Assembly: GCA_004322275.1 (NCBI GenBank)
Contig: SCTA01000036.1
Location: 1-64,000 of the forward strand
DNA length: 64,000 nucleotides
DNA from: a bacterium
GTDB taxonomy: Bacteria > Desulfobacterota > Deferrisomatia > Deferrisomatales > BM512
Direction: 5' to 3'
Numbering within the stretch: the first letter of the stretch is position 1; the number at the start of each line of letters is the position of its first letter. The notes below the pieces were generated by a model. That model saw nothing but the letters and a program-made list of their open reading frames with translations. It made no database searches and had not been told where the DNA came from. Below are positions 41,579-51,055 of this stretch, in pieces. The translations under genes were made by a program, and so were the position numbers.

Positions 41579-41652
<74 letters not shown>

Positions 41653-45407: not shown

Positions 45408-46127
45408 TTAGTCGCGAGAGCGGCCGGTGAGCCGGAGCATGAACAAAAACAGGTTGACGAAATCGAGGTACAAGGCCAGCGCCCCGTAGATTGAGGCGCG
45501 GGAGAGAGAGTCGTCGCCGTAGGCGGAGGCCTCCAGGCCGATGCGCTGTATCTTCTGGGAATCGTAGGCCGCGAGCCCCGTGAAGATGAAGACGCCCAGA
45601 TAGGTCAGCGCCCAGTCCAGCCACGCCAGGGCGGTGAAGATGTTAACCACGGTGGCGATTACCAGCCCCAGAAGCCCCATGAGAAGAAAGGAGCCCCAGG
45701 AGGTAAGGTCTTTTTTGGTGAAGGTGCCGTAAAGCGCCGCTCCCCCGAAGACCGCCGACGACACCGCAAGGGTCTGAAGCACCGAGGCTGAGGTATAGCG
45801 CAGAAGGACGACCGACATCGTCATGCCGGAAAGGGCGCTGTAAAGCACGAAAAGCCAGCTCGCCGTAGCGGTGGAGATTCTGCCTATCGCCCAGGAAAGT
45901 CCCATCACGAGGCCGAGCTGGGCGATGATGAGGCCGGTGAACCACGCTCCGTTCATGATGAAGGTGGTCATCAGGTAGTCGCTCTTCAGGACCAGAAGCG
46001 CGGCGGCCGCGCTAACCCCGAGACCTCCCGCCATCCAGCCGTAGACGTTTGTGATGAATCTAGTGCGAACCTGCACCCAGACTTTTTCGTCGATGGCGGG
46101 AACGCTTCCGTTTATGGTACCGTACAT
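45408..46127 (-). CDS. BI-1/YccA-like integral membrane protein
   Basis: 239 residues, seven membrane helices. FITNVYGWMAGGLGVSAAAAL, GLIIAQLGLVMGLSWAIGRIS, GTFTKKDLTSWGSFLLMGLLGL and FTGLAAYDSQKIQRIG are typical of Bax-inhibitor-1 relatives (YbhL/YccA). In E. coli YccA modulates FtsH; other members are calcium leak channels. The role here is unknown. Start at 46127 after AGAGG; an ORF reaching 46247 lacks support. It may be followed in the same transcript by nifJ. Confidence 0.9.
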   Translation of the reverse strand: MYGTINGSVPAIDEKVWVQVRTRFITNVYGWMAGGLGVSAAAALLVLKSDYLMTTFIMNGAWFTGLIIAQLGLVMGLSWAIGRISTATASWLFVLYSALSGMTMSVVLLRYTSASVLQTLAVSSAVFGGAALYGTFTKKDLTSWGSFLLMGLLGLVIATVVNIFTALAWLDWALTYLGVFIFTGLAAYDSQKIQRIGLEASAYGDDSLSRASIYGALALYLDFVNLFLFMLRLTGRSRD

Positions 46128-46575
46128 AATTGAAAACCTCTGAATTTCCTTGTTTCTTCCGTAAAATTTCCTGCGGGCCGATATTTTAAAAACCCCAGGG
46201 AAAACAGGTCGAACGATAAATATAACTTCCAAAACCCGCCCCATCAAGGGTTCGGGAAAACTTTTAACCTCACTTAAAAAAATATGATTTGAGTCAATTT
46301 AAGGAAGCGCCGAAAGACGCTCGCCGGGGCGTAAATTATTCTTTATTATCAATGCCTTGCGGCTACCGGAATGAGGCGGGGGTTTCGGACGGCTGCAAAA
46401 CCCCCCTGCGACCCCCCCCTCCCGGACCCTGTTTCCCTGCGTTTTCCGAAAGAAAAATATACCGGGTTTTGGCCGCCGGGGAGCTTTTTAGCCGCGCCCG
46501 GAGGATGCTCCGGGGAAAAGGTCAGGGGAAGTCCGCGAATAGAAAATTTTTACCCCGGTCTCTTCGCCGGAGTCC
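46128..46575. other. Intergenic region with a C-rich tract (G-rich on the minus strand)
   Basis: No gene is convincing in these 450 bases; the short ORFs on either strand lack ribosome-binding sites and recognisable sequence. Positions 46401-46429 hold runs of 6, 8, 3 and 3 C. On the minus strand this gives four G-runs that could fold into a G-quadruplex about 270 bases upstream of the BI-1-like gene. Confidence 0.45.
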
Positions 46576-46604
46576 TTGACTAACGGGTTTTTCGTCGTTA
46601 ACTT
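46576..46604 (+). promoter_or_regulatory. Sigma-70-like promoter for a small transcript
   Basis: TTGACT (46576-46581), 17-base spacer, TAACTT (46599-46604). Transcription would start near 46611 and run through the 18-codon ORF to the terminator ending near 46787. Confidence 0.55.
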
Positions 46605-46646
46605 TTTTTCTGTAAGGAATTCAAAACGGAAGGAGGTGTTTTGGTG

Positions 46647-46703
46647 ATGAAACGTTTCATGCTTCCGAGAGTCGCGCACTGCAGCGAAGGCTGCACTAGC
46701 TAG
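46647..46703 (+). CDS. Possible 18-residue peptide with two cysteines
   Basis: ATG at 46647 follows AAGGAGG with a 10-base spacer, a near-ideal ribosome-binding site. The product would be MKRFMLPRVAHCSEGCTS, ending in a CSEGC motif, then TAG. It has its own promoter and terminator. A small peptide, a leader peptide or a modified-peptide precursor are possible; no modifying enzyme gene is nearby. The next gene downstream is on the other strand, so it is not a leader of that gene. Confidence 0.45.
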   Translation: MKRFMLPRVAHCSEGCTS

Positions 46704-46738
46704 TCCCGGACAAGACTCAAAACTGTCCGACAGCCTTT

Positions 46739-46787
46739 AAACCCCGTGTATCAGGCCGTAAGGTCCGGTACACGGGGTTTCGTTTTT
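46739..46787 (+). terminator. Intrinsic terminator of the small transcript
   Basis: AACCCCGTGTA (46740-46750) pairs with TACACGGGGTT (46769-46779), then TCGTTTTTT. The 18-base loop contains a further small stem GGCC-GGTC. The flanking AAA/TTT also let it act for the minus-strand engB-cmk gene that ends at 46805. Confidence 0.9.
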
Positions 46788-46804
46788 TGGCCGGGTGAAG
46801 ATTA

Positions 46805-48103
46805 TTATGACTTTTTGATCTCCATCGCCTTAAGGGCGAGACGCTCAATCTCCCGTGCGACCTCTTCGGCGCTAAGCTCTCCGGAATCGATGAGGACCGC
46901 GTCGTCGGCTGGTTTGAGGGGCGAGTGGGCGCGGGTGGAGTCGTTTTTGTCCCTCTCCTTGATGTCGGCGAGGATCTTTTCGTAAACCGCCTCCTGCCCC
47001 CTCTCGTGCAGTTCGAGAACCCGCCTTTTCGCCCGGCGCTCGGGAGAGGCGGTGAGATATATCTTCAAAAAGGCGTCGGGGAACACCACCGTGCCCATGT
47101 CGCGCCCCTCCGCGACGGTCGGGGCTCCCAGGCCGATGGTGCGCTGGAAGGAGGCCATCGCCTCCCTCACGGTCCGCACCGCCGAGACGCGGGAGGCCAG
47201 CGAACTTACCCTGTGTTCCCGTATCTTCTCCGAGAGGTCCTCGCCGTCGAGGTAAATCTTCGCGGTCCCCCCCTCCCTGCGGAACTCCAGGGTGGTTTCG
47301 GCGCAGAGTTTTGCGAGCGCCTCCTCGTCCTCGAAGGACACGCCTTCCCTGTCGGCCTTCCAGCCTATGGCGCGGTACATCGCCCCGGTGTCGAGGTAGT
47401 TGAACCCCAGCTTTCCGGCGACAAGTTTCGCCACGGTGGATTTTCCGGCTCCCGAGGGGCCGTCGATGGTGACTACCGTGACTCTTTTCCCCGCGCCCCC
47501 TTCTTCCTCCCGGCGGAGGTTGTCGAAGATCGCTTTCCAGACCTCCTCGTAACCTTCTCCGTCTTTCGCCGTGGTGAGAATTATTCTGCCGCCGTAGCCG
47601 ATGGAGGCGGCAATCTCTCTGGCCCTCTTCTCCCGCTGGGACCTCGGGGCCTTGTCCGCCTTGGTCACGACAGGCAAAAGGGTTTTACCGGAATCGCGGA
47701 CAAGACCGGCGAACCACCTGTCGTCGCCGGAGGGCTCCCGCCGTATGTCGAGGAGTTGCACGACTATGGCAATCTTGCCGCACTCTTTTATGAATTCAGC
47801 TACCCGCTCGATCCAGCGCCGCACCTCTTCCTTCGGGGCTTCGGCGTATCCGTAGCCGGGAACGTCCACCAGAATCAGCTTTTCGTCCACCTCGAAGAAG
47901 TTGAGAAGCCTCGTTCTGCCGGGCGTGCAGGAGGTGCGGGCGATATTTTTTCTTTTCAGTATGAAATTAATAAAGGAGGATTTCCCGACGTTGGAGCGCC
48001 CGGCGACCACCACCATGGGCAGTTCCGTAGCGGGCTCGCCGCGCCAGCGGGGCTCGGAAATAATAAATTTAGCCAGTGATGGGTTGAACTTTTTAGTTTT
48101 CAC
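46805..48103 (-). CDS. Fused EngB GTPase - cytidylate kinase
   Basis: 432 residues in one reading frame. Residues 1-200 are EngB/YihA, the GTPase of large-ribosome-subunit assembly: G1 GRSNVGKS (35-42), G3 DVPGYGYA (80-87), G4 TKAD (147-150). Residues 207-432 are cytidylate kinase, which phosphorylates CMP/dCMP: Walker A DGPSGAGKST (214-223), YLDTGAMYRA, EGRDMGTVVFP, and RDKNDSTRAHSPLKPADDA. The junction REEEGGAGKRVTV has no ATG/GTG/TTG near the second domain, so separate translation is unlikely. GTG start at 48103 with a poor SD. Both activities are normally essential and on separate proteins. Confidence 0.9.
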   Translation of the reverse strand: MKTKKFNPSLAKFIISEPRWRGEPATELPMVVVAGRSNVGKSSFINFILKRKNIARTSCTPGRTRLLNFFEVDEKLILVDVPGYGYAEAPKEEVRRWIERVAEFIKECGKIAIVVQLLDIRREPSGDDRWFAGLVRDSGKTLLPVVTKADKAPRSQREKRAREIAASIGYGGRIILTTAKDGEGYEEVWKAIFDNLRREEEGGAGKRVTVVTIDGPSGAGKSTVAKLVAGKLGFNYLDTGAMYRAIGWKADREGVSFEDEEALAKLCAETTLEFRREGGTAKIYLDGEDLSEKIREHRVSSLASRVSAVRTVREAMASFQRTIGLGAPTVAEGRDMGTVVFPDAFLKIYLTASPERRAKRRVLELHERGQEAVYEKILADIKERDKNDSTRAHSPLKPADDAVLIDSGELSAEEVAREIERLALKAMEIKKS

Positions 48104-48476: not shown

Positions 48477-49256
48477 TTGGAGCTTTGGGGTAATCTTAAG
48501 GATTTCAGTCTTCCCGACGTGATTCAGCTCGTCGGGTTCGGCAGGAAGAGCGGTGTGCTCGGCGTAGAGCACAACGGCGCTTCCGCCAGGCTTTTTTTTC
48601 AGGAAGGAAACGTCGTTCACGCCGAAATGGGAGACCTTTCCGGTGAAGACGCCGTCTTCATGCTCTTTCGCCTCGTCGAGGGGGAGTTCCGCTTCAGGGC
48701 CGATTTAAAGCCTCCCGCGCAGACGATTTTCATGGACCCGACAAATCTGGTCATGGAAGCCGCCCGCCTCATGGACGAATCCGCGAGGGATTCCCGGGAA
48801 GCAAGGGAGAAAGCGGCGGAAGCCCAGCCTGTGGTCGAGGCCGCTCAGGAGGTTGAGGCGGTTTCGCCGCCGCCCCCCCCTGCTGAAGACGATTTCTCCA
48901 CCGAACTTCCGGAAATTTTTGTAGAAGAAGAAACTGTAAGCGTTCTGGGGTACGATTCTGGCGATGGCTATGGTATAATAGCGCCGGTTGAGGAGCCAGT
49001 AGCTTCACAGCCTCCAGCCAGGAAGGTCTCGACTCCCGCGGAAATCCGTGAGGAATTGAAGGTTATTCTTGAACAGAAATTCGGCCGCGAATCAAAGCGG
49101 CTATTGCAAGCGGTGGAGAAATGCGGGGATACACTAGACGAATTCCAGCAGCTGGTGACGAGGGTGGAGCGTTTCGTTTCAGCCTTCGTCGATCCGAAGT
49201 CCGCCTCCCAGATAGGGGACGAACTTCGCCAGATTGTATCAAAACTCTCTTCCTGA
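48477..49256 (+). CDS. DUF4388 domain protein
   Basis: 259 residues. The N-terminal DUF4388/PATAN-type domain is clear: GNLKDFSLPDVIQLVGFGRKSGVL, then LFFQEGNVVHAEMGDLSGEDAVFMLFRLVEGEFRF. A Pro/Glu-rich linker (about 105-190) leads to a C-terminal helical region resembling 'EIREELKVILEQKFGRESKRLL'. Such domains occur in deltaproteobacterial signalling proteins linked to chemotaxis and gliding. TTG start at 48477. Coding ends inside the next reading frame, so the downstream gene overlaps. Confidence 0.82.
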   Translation: MELWGNLKDFSLPDVIQLVGFGRKSGVLGVEHNGASARLFFQEGNVVHAEMGDLSGEDAVFMLFRLVEGEFRFRADLKPPAQTIFMDPTNLVMEAARLMDESARDSREAREKAAEAQPVVEAAQEVEAVSPPPPPAEDDFSTELPEIFVEEETVSVLGYDSGDGYGIIAPVEEPVASQPPARKVSTPAEIREELKVILEQKFGRESKRLLQAVEKCGDTLDEFQQLVTRVERFVSAFVDPKSASQIGDELRQIVSKLSS

Positions 49257-51055
49257 CGGCGGTTCTCCTCCTCGCTCTTTCCCCCCTGAAGGCGCTCGCC
49301 CTCCCCCTCGACATCGTCTTTCCCGGCGACGTTCTCTATGACATTACCTCCGACAGCGAAGATAAAAAGATCGCGCAGATAACCGACGCGGTGAAAACCG
49401 CCAACTCCCGCGCCGAATCTTTCAGCTACACCCGCGAGGAGGGCAACCTCCGCCTTAAATTTTCCTTTTTCACCGATGAGGGGAAGGCCGAGTTCTTCCT
49501 TTACGGCTCCAAGAACGACTACTACCGCATGGCTATGGGCAAGGGCGGGGAAACCCTCTGCGACGCCGACGAGAGGGTGGAGTACGCCGCCACCTCGAAG
49601 ACGAAGGAGGGGGTTGTCTATAAGGTCAATTTCGTGGGTTTCGACCTCCTCAAAAAAGCCGAGGAGGACAAAATAACGAAAGTACTCCAGGAGGCCATCG
49701 ACTCCAACGACCCCAGAGCCCTCGAAGAGTTCGCCAAAACCTATAAAAGCACCCCCCAGGCCGTTGTCGCCACGAAAAAAGCCCAGGCGCTGAAGGAAGA
49801 AATGGCCTGGGAGAGGGCTAAAAAGGACGATACCAGAGACAGCCTCCAGGCTTTCCTGAATTACTACCCCCACTCGATCTACCGCCTTGCCGCGCAAAAA
49901 CGGCTCGACGAAATGAAAAACGCCGAAAAAGTCGCCGAGGCAAAGAGGAAGGCAGAGGAAGAAAACAGGAAAAAAGCCGAAGAGGAAGCAAAAAAACGCG
50001 CCGGCGAGGAAAAGGCGAGAAAGGCGATATCAAGCGCCTACGCTTCCGCGCGGTCGGCCGACACTGTTGAGGCCTACGAAAAATTCCTCCAGATCTATCC
50101 CGAATCCCCCGACGCGCAGGCCGCGAGGGAAAGAATCGAGACAGTCAGGGAGGATTCCCTCTACGAGAAGAGCCGGGGCACGGACAAGGGGCTCGCCGAA
50201 TATCTTCGCGCCTACCCCGAGGGACGCCACGCGGAAGACGCCAGGAGAACGCTGGAGGAGCTCAAGTCCCAGACCGGAGACGTCCTCAAGGTGAAAAAGG
50301 GCTCCCGCTCGCCCGCCGTTGACGGCAACGACAGCGATCAGGTGTGGGGCGAGTCGAAAGTACTCAAGGTTCCCCTCCAGGGCGGAGCCGGGGGGACGAT
50401 GGAGATTCGCGCCGTGCAAAACGGCAACGAAATCTTTTTCCTCGTCAAGTGGCCGGACAGGACCAAGAACGTCGCTTACCGGCCCTGGGTTCGCCAGAAC
50501 AAACGGTTCCGTCCCTCGGAAGAGGTTGACGACGCCTTCTCGATGGCCCTTTACATGGGCAGGCAGCCCGGCGATTCCTGCATGGTAAGCGGTGAAGAGC
50601 AGGAGATGGACGTCTGGCTGTGGCGCGCTTTCTGGTCGGAGCTTTCGGGGTACGCGGCGGACAAGATTCTCAAGATCAGCCGCTCTCCCCTTCCCGAATC
50701 CAATATCTACCAGGCCAGAAACGGCGCCAGCATACACGTACAGAACAAATCCGACGGCGGAAAGCCCGCCTGGGAGTTGTACGTCCCCATCGCGTCCGCA
50801 ACCACCCTCGACACCGTCCCCAGTTACGTAAAAGCCCAGCCCTCCGGCAGCTCGGGCGACGTGCGGGCCGTGGGGAGCTGGAGAAACAACATGTGGACCG
50901 TGGAGTTTTCGCGCAAGCTGGCCACCGGGAACCTCGACGACGTGACCCTGAAGCTGGGAGGCCACTACTACGCCTCCTTCGCCGCCTACGACCACTCGGA
51001 AAAAAGCGACCATTCCTCGACGAAACTTATCACCCTCGATATCGAAGGGAAGTAA
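49121..51055 (+). CDS. Exported protein with coiled-coil/TPR-like middle and C-terminal heme-binding-like domain
   Basis: Reading frame of 644 residues. A signal-type helix appears at about 41-60 (TLFLTAVLLLALSPLKALA). ATG 49121 has GGAG close by but overlaps the previous gene by 136 bases; the true start may be a rare codon near 49238 (ATC). The mature part has an N-terminal domain, a Lys/Glu/Ala coiled coil (about 265-305) and TPR-like repeats (AYEKFLQIYPESPDAQAARERIE, LAEYLRAYPEGRHAEDARRTLEEL). Residues 395-644 (VDGNDSDQVWGESKVLKVPL, IFFLVKWPDRTKN, DDAFSMALYMG) resemble the ethylbenzene-dehydrogenase-type heme-binding domain found in periplasmic redox proteins. No CxxCH motif is present. 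The heme call is from pattern only. Confidence 0.75.
   Translation: MRGYTRRIPAAGDEGGAFRFSLRRSEVRLPDRGRTSPDCIKTLFLTAVLLLALSPLKALALPLDIVFPGDVLYDITSDSEDKKIAQITDAVKTANSRAESFSYTREEGNLRLKFSFFTDEGKAEFFLYGSKNDYYRMAMGKGGETLCDADERVEYAATSKTKEGVVYKVNFVGFDLLKKAEEDKITKVLQEAIDSNDPRALEEFAKTYKSTPQAVVATKKAQALKEEMAWERAKKDDTRDSLQAFLNYYPHSIYRLAAQKRLDEMKNAEKVAEAKRKAEEENRKKAEEEAKKRAGEEKARKAISSAYASARSADTVEAYEKFLQIYPESPDAQAARERIETVREDSLYEKSRGTDKGLAEYLRAYPEGRHAEDARRTLEELKSQTGDVLKVKKGSRSPAVDGNDSDQVWGESKVLKVPLQGGAGGTMEIRAVQNGNEIFFLVKWPDRTKNVAYRPWVRQNKRFRPSEEVDDAFSMALYMGRQPGDSCMVSGEEQEMDVWLWRAFWSELSGYAADKILKISRSPLPESNIYQARNGASIHVQNKSDGGKPAWELYVPIASATTLDTVPSYVKAQPSGSSGDVRAVGSWRNNMWTVEFSRKLATGNLDDVTLKLGGHYYASFAAYDHSEKSDHSSTKLITLDIEGK

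Follow-up and report, generated by a model that had tools for sequence, protein, structure and literature searches.

A small, unannotated gene with a Cys-containing micro-ORF and a pseudoknot at its 3' end, present across many bacterial phyla

Small H-type pseudoknots are known from the preQ1-I riboswitch and from frameshift and readthrough signals, and they are among the closest described counterparts of the unit analysed here, which lies at 46576-46788 of a 64,000-nt stretch of bacterial DNA (the window). They share with its RNA element two interleaved helices, a short loop 1, an A-rich loop 3 and a length of about 26 nt, whereas the element has no Rfam match, borders on or overlaps with the last part of a coding frame, has no slippery site or fixed stop codon, and often has no gene behind it. 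A second parallel is the dual-function RNA VcdRP (PMC8672173), together with SgrS/SgrT: each is a short stand-alone transcript with its own promoter and terminator and a tiny ORF. These RNAs pair through a seed with target mRNAs, whereas no conserved unpaired seed was seen in the alignment of our element, in which, again unlike these systems, ORF and structure overlap and which is spread over many phyla. The third is CruR (DUF2946), a copper-responsive upstream ORF of Bordetella that sets the precedent for a nascent CXXC peptide sensing copper; it has about 145 residues with CXXC and a C-terminal RAPP, heads an operon and is Rho-dependent (PMC9426467). The likeness lies in a Cys-pair peptide tied to metal genes and in a coupling of ribosome and RNA, but the unit in the window does not belong to this family, having 18 residues, a 16-residue core with CxxxC, no RAPP, a pseudoknot and a convergent neighbour, and its relatives often lack a downstream gene.

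As the first-pass annotation of this DNA had suggested, the element and its peptide were compared with Rfam and with protein families. Rfam 15 (4227 families) gave no match over the window's element even to an E-value of 5, nor did the element match in any related locus searched, and the peptide matched no family of Pfam or NCBIfam at E up to 10 and no chain in the PDB. A literature search by peptide motif and by concept, with subscription papers and UniProt outside its scope, returned no description of the element.

The unit and its micro-ORF

This stretch of about 180 bases is a genuine, unannotated small gene that is present across many bacterial phyla. The first-pass annotation had taken it for a complete stand-alone unit with a Cys-containing ORF, which is now backed by conservation in 12 of 12 genomes of the class and in many other phyla, and the promoter pair, AAGGAGG, ORF and strong terminator that it listed are all present on direct reading of the sequence. 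All are on the + strand. The putative sigma-70 promoter (46576-46604) combines TTGACT (46576-46581) with TAACTT (46599-46604) across a 17-nt spacer, and transcription would start at about 46611; a generic promoter scan did not report it. All 12 class members carry a TTGAC box with a -10-like hexamer 16-17 nt later, 67-80 nt 5' of the ATG. The Shine-Dalgarno sequence AAGGAGG (46630-46636) precedes a micro-ORF of 18 codons, MKRFMLPRVAHCSEGCTS, which runs from 46647 to 46703 (ATG at 46647, stop TAG at 46701-46703), with GTG at 46644 as an alternative start. At the far end stands an intrinsic terminator (46739-46788), composed of a hairpin at 46739-46780, with 14 outer and 4 inner pairs and a one-base mismatch on each side, and a U run at 46783-46788. 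It folds at -30.5 kcal/mol (z = -6.5 versus chance) and accounts for the bulk of the above-chance folding energy, the transcript before it folding no better than shuffles (z = -0.9). A terminator-like site within 180 nt was found in 45 of 183 relatives and in none of the shuffles. The hairpin is a near-perfect inverted repeat, and it may also stop the convergent engB-cmk transcript.

By the comparative evidence, the micro-ORF is translated and its peptide is under purifying selection. The share of synonymous changes among one-base codon differences, a check proposed in the first-pass annotation, is 0.759 against an expected 0.204, and codon changes within the class alone are synonymous in 278 cases and nonsynonymous in 10. 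A start codon with a Shine-Dalgarno sequence opens 180 of the 184 ORFs compared, and an in-frame stop follows the core within 9 codons in 181; the corresponding counts in the remaining frames are 40 and 77. With its synonymous excess, Shine-Dalgarno sequence and in-frame stop, the unit thus contains a conserved protein-coding small ORF, too short for ordinary gene calling.

The product would be a microprotein, about 18 residues long in the window and roughly 16-30 in relatives, with the consensus (R/K/H)(F/Y/W)M(L/I/V)(R/P)(R/P/A/E)(V/T/I)A-H-C-(K/S)-(E/D)-G-C. The codons of its H-C-x-E-G-C core (46677-46694), a possible metal or thiol site, are nearly invariant among relatives, although for H, C and G this is partly by construction, since these residues stood in the search patterns. 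In 13 of 182 relatives His stands in for the last Cys, and some peptides of Actinomycetota read HCCEGK. One copy (L242:2067-2136) reads RPVAN-TGA-KEGC, with the codons for His and the first Cys changed and the latter turned into UGA, which could be either decay or selenocysteine.

The pseudoknot at the 3' end of the ORF

The conserved structure of the unit, as judged from the alignments, is at the 3' end of the ORF. Here a 26-nt element (46703-46728), sharing the last base of the stop codon, is assigned to the H-type pseudoknots because both of its interleaved helices show compensatory changes. Helix S1 pairs GUC (46703-46705) with GAC (46714-46716), helix S2 pairs GGACA (46708-46712) with UGUCC (46724-46728), and an A-rich loop occupies 46717-46723; the consensus is GUC-YN-GGGCA-N-GAC-N3AAAC-UGCCC. 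With both helices counted, alignment A1 contains 39 cells with both bases of the pair changed, where shuffles give 15.9 and slid controls 3-5. Covariation is strong in the GGGCA/UGCCC helix, which is replaced by GAGC/GCUC among others. GUC/GAC was invariant in this alignment because the search patterns demanded it, and we therefore resampled by the peptide alone. In the resample three copies have GCUC/GAGC in place of GUC/GAC, two have GCC/GGC and one has GACC/GGUC; counted separately, S1 has 6 cells changed on both sides with standard pairs kept, against 0.3 in shuffles, S2 has 25 both-side changes at four of its five pairs, and slid controls are far lower for the whole structure. Since S1 pairing was required for entry into this alignment, the 100% pairing of S1 is not itself evidence, the filter inflating the pairing percentage and leaving the exchange of letters unaffected. 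The first-pass annotation had offered an ORF or a structured RNA as alternatives and had pointed to stem covariation as a check: the covariation is there, in helices 3' of the core, so that both parts of the proposal stand and the either/or does not.

The fit between frame and structure is close, the pseudoknot starting 8 bases past the core in 164 of the 184 relatives (9 or 12 in some copies with an intervening stop) and the ORF stopping before or inside it in 181 of 184. The AAA of loop 3 is invariant and GUC/GAC nearly so. Using a model of the 26-mer, the window's element is the only match in its genome, and the element is found in 12 of 12 class genomes. The two parts nevertheless occur separately. 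Geobacter-type copies and several from actinobacteria have a plain hairpin where the pseudoknot would be, and the peptide is also found without a clear pseudoknot. Conversely, pseudoknot-only copies lie between genes in some Firmicutes, one of them in a copper operon (L324), and one genus of the class (g4; L315-L317 in G005, G006 and G007) has a second pseudoknot copy behind a Shine-Dalgarno sequence and a degenerate tiny ORF. Since such copies exist, the RNA is of value without the peptide. The degenerate ORFs, which read MAHLCSSPPH... and MAHPR*, look like peptides decaying behind a retained RNA.

Two observations on copies elsewhere may be added. In actinobacterial HCCEGK copies (L273, L276, L277, L280 and L281) a second, tandem pseudoknot-like repeat (GTCCTGAGCANGAC...) follows directly behind the first. 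In a prophage-like region (L319:2898-3025, - strand) a pseudoknot-only match is followed about 16 nt downstream by a sub-threshold match to the GP20-a RNA (40.3 bits); the former could be due to chance or could represent an unrecognised portion of the GP20-a motif.

The initial annotation had seen three internal stem-loops. One of these, GGACA/UGUCC at 46708-46728, is conserved and covaries, and is in fact one helix of the pseudoknot, which had been missed; the other two arise as by-products of the coding sequence. Pairing in the Cys-codon hairpin does not exceed that of shuffled columns, and the hairpin was rejected as a structure. As to the start-codon hairpin, suggested as a gate on translation, its 14-nt palindrome (ATGAA/TTCAT) is perfect in only 7 of 42 MKRF-type members, and gating was dropped because the pairing follows from the Met-Lys-Arg-Phe-Met codons and most relatives have it disrupted or not at all.

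Distribution and genomic neighbourhood

In a peptide search each of the 12 class genomes had exactly one counterpart of the micro-ORF, all at E < 2e-6. Of 395 genomes drawn from the window's phylum, 37 match at E <= 0.001 and 51 at 0.1, certain of them carrying two or three copies. A peptide-only profile, which contained no RNA, matched 41 of 249 genomes of Moorella's phylum, 30 of 198 of Actinomycetota and 45 of 145 of Omnitrophota, and the sampled genomes with a counterpart span at least four phyla, plus other lineages by name. A pattern scan of named genomes gave at least 117 matching stretches; among the matches listed are Omnitrophota, Peptococcaceae, Moorella, Thermincola, Zixibacteria, Acidobacteria, Actinomycetota, Auribacterota and several deltaproteobacterial groups. 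A lack of conservation in relatives had been named at the outset as evidence against the unit; conservation was found, for the ORF and for one of the stems. It is rare for so short a peptide to be conserved at nearly every residue all the way from Omnitrophota to Actinomycetota and clostridia-like Firmicutes, and rarer still for a pseudoknot to share its last codons; the search profile enables annotation of the element in many genomes. The peptide was absent from the viral collection searched, and the phage and plasmid collections gave no match to the element or insignificant ones only; a plasmid, phage or viral origin was dropped for want of a convincing match in these collections.

In the window, the unit lies between a divergent gene for a BI-1 / Bax1-I family membrane protein (45411-46247, - strand; Pfam PF01027, E = 3.9e-51) and a convergent gene (46805-48103, - strand; Pfam PF01926 and PF02224) whose 432-residue frame carries an EngB-like GTPase domain (residues 31-148) and a cytidylate kinase (211-421), apparently as a fusion. 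No + strand gene is present at the locus for the element to regulate in cis. In 5 of 5 genomes of the window's family the element stands beside BI-1 and a pyruvate:ferredoxin oxidoreductase gene. In a set of 184 non-redundant elements, 84 are flanked on both sides by genes on their own strand; a gene on that strand lies upstream of 134, about 70 lack a close one downstream, and only about 28 seem to be the first gene ahead of another on the strand. The arrangement is that of a gene and not of a leader, and it opposes a role as cis leader of the downstream gene as a general rule.

Among the neighbours, Rrf2 (18/98), hemerythrin (5/98), HMA (4/98) and Metal_resist (9/115) recur, counts that are inflated because the families partly follow clade synteny and are thus not independent; none of the four occurs among 98 genes more than 3 kb away, in a list reaching down to single members. 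Further neighbours are Hcp (hybrid-cluster protein), MsrA/MsrB, ArsM, CopA and NifU, and what we take, from sequence only, to be glutaredoxin and thiol peroxidase. The recurrent neighbours centre on redox and metal stress. The window's own neighbours, BI-1, pyruvate:ferredoxin oxidoreductase and EngB-Cmk, have no direct metal link.

Readings of the unit

The most likely reading, to which we give a probability of roughly 45%, is a small gene that encodes a metal- or thiol-binding microprotein and that has a promoter and terminator of its own in the window and sits inside operons elsewhere. The peptide would bind a soft metal or react through its thiols, as suggested by the Cys-to-His exchange and by the neighbours recurring around redox and metal stress, and it would act in trans, since it is followed by no same-strand gene in the window, nor in about a third of the loci. 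The pseudoknot could then serve as the structural 3' end of the cistron, stabilising a short mRNA or isolating it from neighbouring genes; terminating ribosomes would transiently melt it, and in some lineages a plain hairpin would substitute for it. What speaks against the microprotein reading is the existence of pseudoknot-only copies, the partly syntenic origin of the neighbour families and the window's own neighbours. The unit offers a defined, testable pair of microprotein and RNA with a link to the redox and metal stress of anaerobes.

Its chief rival is the reading as a nascent-chain sensor, in which a metal, NO or an oxidant that binds to the emerging HCxEGC stalls or releases the ribosome at the pseudoknot and so alters mRNA stability or expression in the same operon. 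Ribosome-pausing pseudoknots have a geometry that resembles the core-to-pseudoknot spacing of the element, and the usual 8 bases in a fixed frame, the strong residue conservation of the peptide, the frequent Rrf2, CopA and Hcp genes downstream and the CruR precedent (PMC9426467) all fit. Nonetheless, few copies look like the opening gene ahead of another on their strand, a downstream target is missing in about a third of loci, the window among them, and the spacing shifts where a stop intervenes, so that we consider such a sensor possible but rather unlikely. The same tentative standing applies to its broadest form, in which nascent HCxEGC and stop-codon pseudoknot would make up one undescribed, very widespread translation-coupled device responding to metal, NO or thiol stress, at work as a gene in its own right as well as in a leader.

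One could also speculate that the pseudoknot is the functional part, as a small regulatory RNA or ligand-binding element, with the ORF a platform coupling it to translation. The constancy of AAA and GUC/GAC, the peptide-less copies between genes and the tandem duplicates in actinobacteria point this way, but a peptide that is strongly selected and also found with plain hairpins or no clear pseudoknot, the lack of a conserved seed and the many loci with no downstream gene make it doubtful. A type I small toxin or the precursor of a modified or secreted peptide, which a short and strongly signalled unit (promoter, Shine-Dalgarno sequence, terminator) might call to mind, is very improbable: the peptide is charged and Cys-containing and is not a hydrophobic helix, it is single-copy in the class, the plasmids, phages and viral contigs searched gave no convincing match, and no modification enzyme recurs among the listed neighbour families. 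A chance ORF between two genes, suggested by a length below the reach of gene callers, is refuted by the synonymous conservation, alongside the class-wide and multi-phylum matches, the Shine-Dalgarno and stop statistics and the pseudoknot covariation.

Two further features of the window are recorded here. A tRNA-Cys gene (41579-41652, - strand) lies about 5 kb from the element, just past the pyruvate:ferredoxin oxidoreductase gene on its 3' side, which is probably a coincidence, and a frame at 49121-51052 (+ strand), downstream of a DUF4388 gene, encodes a protein with a C-terminal ethylbenzene-dehydrogenase-type (EB_dh) domain.
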